Shown: positions 50,114-53,871 of the stretch, piece by piece
Layout of the letters: each line of letters opens with the position of its first letter
Numbering within the stretch: position 1 is the first letter of the stretch
Origin: Pseudomonadota bacterium
GTDB taxonomy: Bacteria > Pseudomonadota > Gammaproteobacteria > Burkholderiales > Sulfuriferulaceae
Reading direction: 5' to 3'
Assembly: GCA_021795395.1 (NCBI GenBank)
Contig: JAJYPN010000004.1
Coordinates: 1 to 64,000, forward strand
Length of the DNA stretch: 64,000 nucleotides
Program-made: the position numbers and the translations under genes
The notes under the pieces: generated by a model
What the model was told of the DNA's origin: nothing
The model's database searches: none
The model's input: the letters and a program-made list of their open reading frames with translations, nothing else

Positions 50114-51577
50114 TTACGAAGAACAGCTGACGCTGATTGGCTGCGCTCCTTCCGGCGGCGCCGCGGCATATCTTTCCATGCCTGGATGCTCGTCGTAAGG
50201 CTGTTGCAATACCCTCATCAAACGGTCGATTTCGCTGGCGTCGTCATGATCGCGAGCAGCGATGATGGCTTGTTCCGCCAGATGGTTACGTAAAATATAT
50301 TTGGGATTGACCCGGCGCATGCGGGTTCCGCGTTCTGCATCGTTGGTTGAGAGGGCAAGCAATCGCCCGCGATACGTGGCCGCCCACGCATCGAACGCCG
50401 CACGATCGATGAACAGGTCGCGCAGGGGCGCATTGATGTTGTCCGGTTCGGTGCTGAAATCGCATAGCGTACGCATGAATATCGTGTAATCGATGCGGTT
50501 GGCCGCGAGCAGATCCAGCAGCTCGATGAGCAGCGGCACATGGCTTTTGTCGGCCGGCAAACCGAGTTTTGCGCAGAGCAGATCGATATAACTGCCGGCG
50601 AACAGCGCGGGATAGCGATCCAGTTCGGCCTTCGCCGCTTCGATCGGCATCAACGGTGTCAGCGCCTGCGCCAGCCGCGTCAGATTCCAGGCCGCCACGT
50701 CGGGCTGCTGATCGAACGCATAACGCCCGTTTTCGTCGGAGTGATTGCAGATAAAACCGGGATCGTAACGGTCGAGAAAACCGAACGGACCGTAATCGAG
50801 CGTCAAACCCAGCAAGGACATATTGTCGGTATTCATCACTCCGTGACTGAACCCCACGGCTTGCCATTGCGCCATCAGACGGGCCGTACTGGCGATGACA
50901 GTTCCCAGCAAGCGCGGATATTTATCGGCGGCGTCAGCGAATTCGGGGTAATGATGCTCGATGACGAAATCCGCCAGAGTGCGGACTTCTTCCGGCTGCC
51001 CGCGATAAAAAAATACCTCGAACGAACCGAAGCGAAGAAAGCTCGGGCTCATGCGCATGACTACCGCCGCCGTCTCCTCGGTTTCCCTGTAAACCGGCAA
51101 ATGGCTACCGACCAGAGACAAGGCGCGCGTCGTTGGTATGCCGAGGCCGAACATGGCTTCCGAACACAAATATTCGCGTATGCTCGAACGCAATACCGCG
51201 CGGCCGTCGCTGCCGCGCGAAAATGGGGTAGGGCCCGAGCCTTTCAGTTGCAGTTCCCATACGTCATCGGGGCCGCTCACATCGCCAAGCAGCAAGGCGC
51301 GGCCGTCGCCCAGTTGCGGAACGAAATAGCCGAACTGGTGGCCGGCGTACAATGCCGCCACCGGCACGGATCCGGGGAACAGGCGATTGCCGCAGAGATA
51401 GTCCGCTGCATCGGGGCGCTGCGCCTCGGCAGGATCAAGGCCGATCAGTTCGGCCGCCAGCGGATTGAAATGCAGCAGGCGCGGCTCGGGCACCGGTGTC
51501 GGCAACGTTTTTTTGTAGAAATGCGGCGGTAGGCCGGCAAACTGGTTGCCGATCGGTAGGGTGTCGAAGGTATGCAT
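50114..51577 (-). CDS. selO: Protein adenylyltransferase SelO (YdiU/UPF0061)
   Basis: SelO is a kinase-fold protein that transfers AMP from ATP to protein hydroxyl groups (AMPylation) and is linked to redox stress responses. The 487-residue protein has the family blocks YAGHQFGYFVPQLGDGRALLLGDV, ELQLKGSGPTPFSRGSDGRAVLRSSIREYL and GVMNTDNMSLLGLTLDYGPFGF (catalytic Asp/Asn). It ends SVSCSS, with cysteine near the C-terminus where eukaryotic forms carry selenocysteine. It is convergent with pgi (stops five bases apart) and otherwise stands alone. Confidence 0.94.
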   Translation of the reverse strand: MHTFDTLPIGNQFAGLPPHFYKKTLPTPVPEPRLLHFNPLAAELIGLDPAEAQRPDAADYLCGNRLFPGSVPVAALYAGHQFGYFVPQLGDGRALLLGDVSGPDDVWELQLKGSGPTPFSRGSDGRAVLRSSIREYLCSEAMFGLGIPTTRALSLVGSHLPVYRETEETAAVVMRMSPSFLRFGSFEVFFYRGQPEEVRTLADFVIEHHYPEFADAADKYPRLLGTVIASTARLMAQWQAVGFSHGVMNTDNMSLLGLTLDYGPFGFLDRYDPGFICNHSDENGRYAFDQQPDVAAWNLTRLAQALTPLMPIEAAKAELDRYPALFAGSYIDLLCAKLGLPADKSHVPLLIELLDLLAANRIDYTIFMRTLCDFSTEPDNINAPLRDLFIDRAAFDAWAATYRGRLLALSTNDAERGTRMRRVNPKYILRNHLAEQAIIAARDHDDASEIDRLMRVLQQPYDEHPGMERYAAAPPEGAQPISVSCSS

Positions 51578-51744
51578 GATTTAAGTCGGTGGTAAAGGAG
51601 GTATGGGCTATGATAACGTCAATAGGCCATTGATGGGAGCGGCTTGGCTATCTAGATGCTATGTCGAGTCGAATCACCTCGATCCGGCGGCCACAGTCCG
51701 GCGCAGAATGCGTAGCTATGCGCTGGTCCGGTCGCGTAGAGTCT

Positions 51745-52053
51745 TCAGTATTTTCTGCCTATCGTGAAACCCACCATCCCCGTTACCAGGCTGGCTAATA
51801 CACTCATCCAGATCTTCTTTTCATCGAGAGATTGATCCCCTAATGCGAGTATCCACAGGCAAATCAAAAAAAGCAGCCCTAAGCAGCCAATTCCAAACAA
51901 GAAAAGTATTTTATCCTTCCAGCGGCGATGATTTGCATCTTCCGCCGTTTCTTGCGGAGAGACCGAAACATCTACCGGCCCTGCGTTTTTTGCGAGGGCA
52001 AGCAAATCTACTGCGGGCGGCAATGATTGCGGCTGCCGCAGATCACTGGTCAT
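51745..52053 (-). CDS. Small two-TM membrane protein, uncharacterised
   Basis: I do not recognise a family. The 102-residue protein has about 45 hydrophilic N-terminal residues, then a helix (ILFLFGIGCLGLLFLICLWILAL), a short charged loop (GDQSLDEKK) and a second helix (MSVLASLVTGMVGFTIG) ending in a basic tail (RKY). The start overlaps the stop of the ribbon-helix-helix gene (TAATG), so translation is coupled and the two products probably work together. The pair could be a toxin-antitoxin-like or regulatory module; that is only inference. Confidence 0.65.
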   Translation of the reverse strand: MTSDLRQPQSLPPAVDLLALAKNAGPVDVSVSPQETAEDANHRRWKDKILFLFGIGCLGLLFLICLWILALGDQSLDEKKIWMSVLASLVTGMVGFTIGRKY

Positions 52054-52259
52054 TACACGCCTATGATTTCACGAAGTACGTGATGCTGACTATCCGTGAT
52101 CGCCAGTTTGTTTCCCTGACCACGTTCCGTTACTGCCAAATCGATCAATGCAATGGCTTTACGCAGCAACTCGCTTTTGGTTGTACCGTCTTTCGCAGCC
52201 AGTTCATCCAGTCGTGAATTTAGCGCTTCGGTAATGTTTACATTAAGTCTTACGTTCAT
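52053..52259 (-). CDS. Ribbon-helix-helix (CopG/Arc-type) transcriptional regulator
   Basis: A 68-residue protein with a ribbon-helix-helix fold: beta strand MNVRLNVNITEAL, helix A LNSRLDELAAKDG, turn and helix B TTKSELLRKAIALIDLAV, followed by a 25-residue C-terminal tail. Such proteins bind palindromic operators as dimers and often autoregulate two-gene operons. A palindrome lies inside the promoter just upstream (52293-52307). A GAGGTG ribosome binding site precedes the ATG. The downstream partner is a small membrane protein coupled by a TAATG overlap. Confidence 0.82.
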   Translation of the reverse strand: MNVRLNVNITEALNSRLDELAAKDGTTKSELLRKAIALIDLAVTERGQGNKLAITDSQHHVLREIIGV

Positions 52260-52287
52260 GATTCACCTCTTTGAGTGGGTTGCACTT

Positions 52288-52316
52288 ATTTTACTCATAA
52301 AATGAGTGTTATGTAA
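52288..52316 (-). promoter_or_regulatory. Promoter with operator-like palindrome for the RHH operon
   Basis: On the minus strand TTACAT (-35), a 17-base spacer and TAAAAT (-10) form a good sigma-70 promoter 29 bases before the RHH start codon. A perfect palindrome ACTCAT-N3-ATGAGT (52293-52307) fills the spacer and touches the -10, where a bound repressor would block polymerase. Autorepression by the RHH protein is the natural reading. Confidence 0.55.
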
Positions 52317-52371
52317 GTAGAATCCGCTTTTTTATGATTTTTTCGTAGTGCTAATGGTCATCTATATAAAG

Positions 52372-52476
52372 TAAGAGCTTCGCACGTAGCGTGCGCTGTC
52401 TGTACCAGTGATGCATGAGGGATCTTGAGCCTGTTTTTACGAGATGAGCAAGCGCAGAAAGTTGCAAAACTCTCTC
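52372..52476 (+). repeat. Dispersed intergenic repeat, copy 3 (about 105 bp, internal deletion)
   Basis: A shorter, diverged copy of the repeat at 27660-27800 (reverse complement). Shared blocks: AGAGCTT-GCAC, GTAGCG, CATGA...GATCTTGAGCC, TTTTTA, ATGAGCAAGCGCAG and TGCAAAACTCTC. It lacks about 35 bases of the middle. It lies about 90 bases upstream of hisD. Confidence 0.75.
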
Positions 52477-52566
52477 GCGATTTTTAGTGCGTCTTACCGT
52501 GTAGTGCTGTGAGCGAACCTGATTTGCCAGTATAATAAGTTTTTGTTAAAACTGCATGCTGTCGTC

Positions 52567-53871
52567 ATGATAACGATACAAACACTGGATACCCGTTCCG
52601 TGGATTTTCAAACCCGGCTGGATCATTTGCTGGCTTTCGAGAGCGGACAGGACGCGTCGATCGAGAGCGCTGTGGAGGAAATCTTGCGGCAGGTGCGCCG
52701 CGACGGCGACAACGCGGTACTGGACTATACGCGTCGTTTCGACCGTCTCGATGCGGCGGCAGTGAGCGAGCTCGAACTGCCGCCGGCGCGTTTGCAGACG
52801 GCGTTGGAGAAGCTGCCGCCCGAACAGCGAATGGCGCTGGAAGCCGCAGCGCAGCGGATACGCGATTATCATCAGCGACAGATCGTGCCGTCATGGAGTT
52901 ACGAGGAAGCTGACGGCACCCTGCTCGGTCAGCAGGTGACGGCGCTTGATCGCGTCGGCTTGTACGTGCCGGGCGGCAAGGCAGCCTATCCCTCGTCGGT
53001 GCTGATGAACGCAATTCCGGCTCATGTTGCCGGAGTGCGGGAATTGATCATGGTGGTGCCGACTCCGGACGGCATCCAGAATGAACTGGTGCTCGCGGCG
53101 GCGGCGGTGGCGGGGGTGACGCGCGTCTTCACCATCGGTGGCGCGCAGGCCGTTGCGGCGCTGGCTTACGGCACCGCGACGATTCCGCAGGTAGACAAGA
53201 TAGTCGGGCCGGGCAATGCGTACGTCGCTGCCGCCAAGCGCCGGGTGTACGGCACGGTCGGTATCGATATGGTGGCGGGACCGTCGGAAATCCTGATTAT
53301 CTGCGATGGCAAGACCGATCCCGACTGGATAGCGATGGATCTGTTTTCGCAGGCCGAGCACGACGAGCTGGCGCAGTCGATCCTGCTTTGTCCCGATGCG
53401 GCGTATATCGAGCAAGTCGTCGCCAGTATCCGTAAATTATTGCCCGACATGCCGCGTCGCACGGTTATCGAGACTTCGCTGCGCGATCGCGGCATATTGA
53501 TTGCCGTGCGCGATCTGGATGAAGCCGTGCGGATTGCCAATCATATTGCGCCCGAGCATCTGGAACTGTCGATGGAAAACGCCGATAGCTGGGTGGCGAA
53601 AATCCGGCACGCCGGTGCGATCTTTATCGGCCGCAATACCTGCGAAGCCTTGGGAGACTATTGCGCCGGGCCCAATCACGTCTTGCCTACGTCACGTACT
53701 GCACGCTTTTCCAGTCCGCTCGGCGTGTACGATTTCCAGAAGCGTTCGAGCCTGATTCGCGTTTCCCCGGCAGGCGCGCAAACGCTCGGCCGTATTGCCT
53801 CTACGCTGGCGTACGGCGAAGGATTGGCGGCGCATGCGCGTTCGGCGGAATATCGTTTGATTGAATCCTGA
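52567..53871 (+). CDS. hisD: Histidinol dehydrogenase
   Basis: HisD oxidises histidinol to histidine in two NAD-linked steps at a zinc site, the last reactions of the pathway. From the ATG at 52567 ([11 protein letters not shown]) it has 434 residues. Motifs: [18 protein letters not shown], the zinc-site region [14 protein letters not shown], and [13 protein letters not shown]. The track's TTG start eight codons earlier is unlikely. It is the first gene of the operon here; the hisG usually found just upstream in betaproteobacteria is absent. Confidence 0.97.

Follow-up and report, generated by a model that had tools for sequence, protein, structure and literature searches.

A small gene for a ribbon-helix-helix (RHH) regulator and the membrane protein gene directly after it form a conserved two-gene module in the 64,000-nucleotide stretch of DNA analyzed here (the window). 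The pair is kept as a unit, with genes that overlap or nearly overlap; it evolves under purifying selection and is patchily spread across phyla and replicons, and inverted repeats are enriched at its promoters. Our tentative reading, which we regard as nearly but not quite probable, is that this is a mobile, autorepressed RHH/membrane-effector module, similar to a toxin-antitoxin (TA) system and with a growth-inhibitory membrane toxin as its second product. The features discussed below are as follows.

52259-52053, minus strand: RHH regulator gene, 68 aa; starts MNVRLNVNI and ends REIIGV, its TAA stop overlapping the next start
52053-51745, minus strand: membrane protein gene, 102 aa, directly after the RHH gene
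52051-52055, minus strand: TAATG stop/start overlap of the two genes, read from sequence, indicating translational coupling
52288-52317, minus strand: predicted sigma-70 promoter, CTTACA-N18-TAAAAT, a 9/12 match in a consensus scan, at chance frequency
52293-52307, no strand: candidate operator ACTCATAAAATGAGT, an inverted repeat with 6-bp arms (ACTCAT and ATGAGT) and a 3-bp AAA spacer
51620-52520, no strand: additional DNA between selO and hisD that contains the pair, approximate outer limits from gap comparison and GC
Membrane protein, by residue (hydropathy and AlphaFold2): predicted cytosolic N-terminus, TM1 at ~49-67, short loop, TM2 at ~81-99

The two gene products

The sequence-only reading had described an RHH regulator coupled through TAATG to a two-helix membrane protein. 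This description stands: both open reading frames, their strand and the TAATG overlap were checked in the window sequence, the first product matches an RHH family and the second has two hydrophobic segments. The match of the 68-aa protein is to Pfam RHH_1 (PF01402; E 1.2e-5, 25.5 bits against a gathering cut-off of 20.5). Its AlphaFold2 model (mean pLDDT 89) has helices at residues 11-24 and 28-46, followed by a C-terminal beta-hairpin with strands 52-55/61-65. DSSP assigned no N-terminal strand in this monomer model; the N-terminal strand of RHH proteins pairs in the dimer. Among solved structures, its closest folds are for the most part those of RHH antitoxins and repressors (ParD, ParG, AtaR, CopG, CopASO, KacA, TacA and VapB/VapB12), none of them below E 0.001. 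Given the PF01402 match, the two helices of the model and its closeness to RHH chains, the protein belongs to the RHH (MetJ/Arc/CopG) superfamily; the assignment is at the superfamily level of RHH_1, and no specific antitoxin family could be given. It is 26-44% identical to the 13 relatives compared, and a C-terminal EIxGL tail is common to most of them. The tails are kept even at loci that have no partner gene, so that toxin binding need not be what the tail serves.

The membrane protein has hydrophobic segments at residues 49-67 and 81-99 by hydropathy and is modelled by AlphaFold2 as a helical hairpin (pLDDT 72), probably N-in/C-in. Single members of its family share just 20-31% identity with the window protein. 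What the homologues have in common is an N-terminal [IV][DN]L segment (in its longer form I[DN]LxxL) on the cytosolic side, an E...R..KD motif preceding TM1 and the pattern EKKWAxSxLxxxxxGxVGYLxG at TM2. The curated families of Pfam and NCBIfam gave no match above cut-off, and PHROGs and PADLOC nothing relevant. TctB, Phage_holin_3_6 and DUF7937 appeared as weak Pfam matches of single members, below cut-off or inconsistent among members, and were rejected as identities; a structure search with the model returned only unrelated helical proteins. For the known type II toxin families (RelE/ParE, PIN, MazF, GNAT, HicA and others), too, the membrane protein had no profile match above cut-off in Pfam or NCBIfam and nothing relevant in PHROGs or PADLOC, and neither protein matched a known phage defence family in PADLOC at E up to 1. 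The earlier remark that neither product was recognised as a known TA family agrees with the searches, in which the membrane protein has no family match above cut-off and the regulator matches the RHH_1 superfamily only.

Distribution, gain and decay of the pair

Homologous pairs, RHH gene first and the two genes overlapping or within 14 bp, were found at about a dozen loci. Most of the other intact pairs overlap by 1-4 bp, and three (L011, L023, L036) have gaps of 3-14 bp. The RHH search returned relatives from plasmids and from a few genomes of Burkholderiales, the downstream neighbors of several being homologues of the membrane protein, and both families align along their length. Further pairs came from searches with the membrane protein (a Paracoccus plasmid, G916, G1441, G1236 and G1439). 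The hosts are beta- and alphaproteobacteria, alongside one cyanobacterial plasmid and two IMG/VR contigs; named carriers are B. glumae, Massilia (two) and Calothrix and Paracoccus plasmids. About a dozen pairs therefore present what is asked of a type II TA system, namely two coupled genes in which a DNA-binding protein is conserved with its partner. Phage records yielded no relatives, and no description of such an RHH/membrane pair was found within the open-access literature. The module had been called undescribed from the sequence alone, and we can retain the term for a pair that is conserved together, mobile and, on the membrane side, free of family matches above cut-off.

Several weaker membrane-protein matches were discarded as chance. 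These were a single 21-residue match from a scan of genome contigs, located in a contig of Clostridia and antisense to longer ORFs; L015-L017, which reached E about 0.005 within ORFs 203-326 aa long; and G1292 and G1414, where the matches lie inside frames of over 1000 aa.

The pair is rare and sporadic, occurring in ~0.3-6% of the genomes sampled: 1/18 in the window's genus, 2/62 in the Massilia genus, 1/43 in another family, 2/399 across the phylum (the window's own included) and ~5/385 among alphaproteobacteria, the last count including a decayed locus, G1489, with an intact RHH gene and a broken membrane frame. An RHH gene, or what is left of one, lies immediately upstream of every convincing membrane-protein match (E <= 1e-5). 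Solo RHH genes exist (L004, L007, L022), but no membrane gene without an RHH gene was seen among these convincing matches, which would be expected were the membrane protein costly on its own.

A few loci deserve separate mention. On the Paracoccus liaowanqingii plasmid the membrane gene (L035:3989-4258, about 149533-149802) is missing from the gene table, in which its RHH gene is listed. L004 and L007 are Massilia plasmids, and their RHH relatives, without a membrane partner, lie near partition genes. On the Nostoc plasmid pTCL26-01_A (L019:2477-2983) an RHH relative is followed after 3 bp by an 83-aa one-helix membrane protein with no clear similarity to the membrane family; exchange of the partner is possible at this locus.

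In the window, the pair lies between selO and hisD (50114-53871), which are divergent neighbors in six congeners too. The gap between them is 988 bp here and 181-225 bp in those six, so that the pair-bearing extra DNA amounts to ~0.76 kb; its GC is 0.40-0.53, lower than that of the flanks (about 0.55-0.67). In the other congeners no selO was found in the examined flank of hisD. The simpler reading, though not a proved one, is a gain of the extra DNA here as opposed to its loss in the congeners. The same genome has a second, decayed copy of the pair on contig 44, where only the RHH tail and both ends of the membrane gene remain. The decayed membrane gene is split by a MITE-like element of ~162 bp (L018/L026, G000:C44:40030-40191) with long terminal inverted repeats (ACTCGCTAATAAATAACTT...AAGTTATTTATTAGCGAGT); elsewhere, the genome has one short fragment of it and six more copies with 82-93% identity.

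Judged from substitution rates, both genes are under purifying selection, with dN well below dS in the comparisons, restricted to pairs with estimable dS. For L061/L062, dN is 0 against a dS of 0.08 (RHH) and 0.03 (membrane); for L009/L013, 0.31 against 0.66 (RHH) and 0.13 against 0.79 (membrane); and for the RHH genes of L006/L024, 0.08 against 0.84.

The settings of the pair range over plasmids, conjugative DNA and chromosomes, and raise the possibility that the second gene encodes an accessory membrane protein of plasmids or integrative elements, for entry or superinfection exclusion or for envelope modification, which is merely RHH-repressed and has no TA relation. The B. glumae pair has TrfA/ParG neighbors, other pairs are on MOBF/MOBP plasmids, and in one IMG/VR contig (L024) a likely conjugation gene, TraG-like by eye only, adjoins; plasmid genes are, moreover, commonly under RHH repressors. 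However, the pair also occurs in chromosomal housekeeping surroundings with no transfer genes in sight, next to gyrB in L061/L062 and between selO and hisD here, and exclusion proteins are not typically coupled strictly to a dedicated regulator. We consider this explanation possible but rather doubtful.

The promoter region

The sequence-only reading had a perfect palindrome filling the spacer of a sigma-70 promoter, and here it has to be amended. The repeat ACTCATAAAATGAGT, whose end lies 33 nt upstream of the RHH start codon, does cover most of the 18-nt spacer, together with the first base of the predicted -10, but its AAA center makes it an inverted repeat and not a perfect palindrome. The promoter is a weak match, at 9/12: the scan found one sigma-70-like match where shuffles average 1.5, and the promoter and terminator scan at the locus returned nothing above chance. 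Taken singly, the inverted repeat of the window locus is not significant, with p = 0.086 (~0.09) for spacers up to 5 and p ~0.22-0.23 for spacers up to 20 in dinucleotide shuffles. With these corrections the original observation largely holds, and the gene pair itself is real.

Over 12 family promoters, in contrast to the window repeat alone (p 0.09-0.23), inverted repeats are in excess, with a pooled p = 1e-4 by Fisher's method for promoters that are not fully independent, those of L006 and L024 being related. For example, the Calothrix pair (L011) has an inverted repeat with 16-bp arms just 5' of the RHH start (p = 0.001), and an ACTYA-N5-TRAGT core is common to this repeat and that of the window. 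Upstream repeats with 6-8 bp arms and 18-20-bp spacers are found around the presumed -10 in L006, L024, L060 and L061. Some of the upstream repeats may belong to terminators of the preceding gene. The enrichment of repeats across the 12 promoters points towards autorepression, and the operator that had been proposed as built into the window promoter, weak on the evidence of this locus by itself, is plausible from the family-wide excess.

The 15-mer ACTCATAAAATGAGT is the sole copy in the genome within one mismatch. This speaks against a wider regulon and bears on the idea of a membrane-tethered switch, in which the membrane protein would sense an envelope signal and sequester the RHH protein, the pair tuning its own expression or that of a neighbor. 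Such a switch would be in keeping with the cytosolic N-terminal segment and its conserved I[DN]LxxL and E...R..KD motifs, the strict pairing of both genes and an RHH tail outside the DNA-binding domain. However, the gene neighbors are not conserved across loci, and together with the unique 15-mer this leaves the switch quite unlikely. Finally, the promoter and inverted repeat of the window locus are each at chance level, as they would be if they were noise beside chance neighbors or non-coding ORFs, but co-conservation across phyla, the gene overlap and dN below dS make this reading scarcely credible as a whole and, from the sequence comparisons, already refute it for the gene pair.

Proposed mode of action and relation to known systems

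The layout, coupling, mobility, decay pattern and promoter repeats fit an autorepressed module of the TA type. In such a module, one or more dimers of the RHH protein would occupy the inverted repeat of their own promoter and repress both genes. The membrane hairpin would be the effector, growth-inhibitory when in excess over the RHH protein. Repression would be the chief means by which the RHH protein restrains it, with binding to the cytosolic N-terminal segment of the hairpin protein as a probable second one. The membrane protein would then be freed once the locus is lost or derepressed. The stronger form of this proposal, a new protein-antitoxin class in which the RHH protein directly neutralises an integral membrane toxin, located on proteobacterial and cyanobacterial plasmids and integrative elements, appears unlikely.

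The pair resembles type II TA systems with RHH antitoxins (ParDE, AtaRT/TacAT/KacAT, VapBC, CopASO) in having a small RHH gene first with an overlapping partner, an inverted repeat at the promoter, a mobile and patchy spread, and decay that spares the RHH gene. It differs in its partner, a membrane protein of two helices that matches none of RelE/ParE, GNAT, PIN or MazF, and in an RHH protein that cannot be assigned to a specific antitoxin family. The autorepressed TA system of the sequence-only reading is thus consistent with layout and mobile distribution and may be called TA-like by arrangement; for its alternative, a membrane-stress module, no specific support was found. Against the TA reading is the survey of Makarova et al. 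(2009; PMC2701414), in which repressor/membrane pairs were left out because type II systems with a membrane component or membrane toxin were not known at that time.

Like the small membrane toxins of type I (Hok/TisB) and type V (GhoT), the presumed effector of the pair is a small, hydrophobic protein of the membrane. Hok/TisB are checked by antisense RNA and GhoT by an mRNA-cleaving antitoxin, whereas control of the pair would be by an RHH protein from the same operon; its membrane proteins are also larger (85-127 aa), with a soluble N-terminal segment. Rfam gave nothing credible on the region, so that, within the scope of Rfam, a type I antisense system is not indicated. The RHH fold, the short inverted-repeat candidate operator and the plasmid setting are likewise those of the CopG/ParG/Arc-type plasmid and phage repressors, which differ in lacking a dedicated coupled membrane partner and the extra C-terminal beta-hairpin of the model.

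The pair constitutes a defined cross-phylum family with a clear sequence signature and is directly testable, and it gives meaning to genes now annotated 'hypothetical' or left unannotated. A membrane toxin would be added to the type II class if the membrane partner proves toxic and is neutralised by the RHH protein; if the pair is not a TA system, it would be a new accessory module of plasmids.
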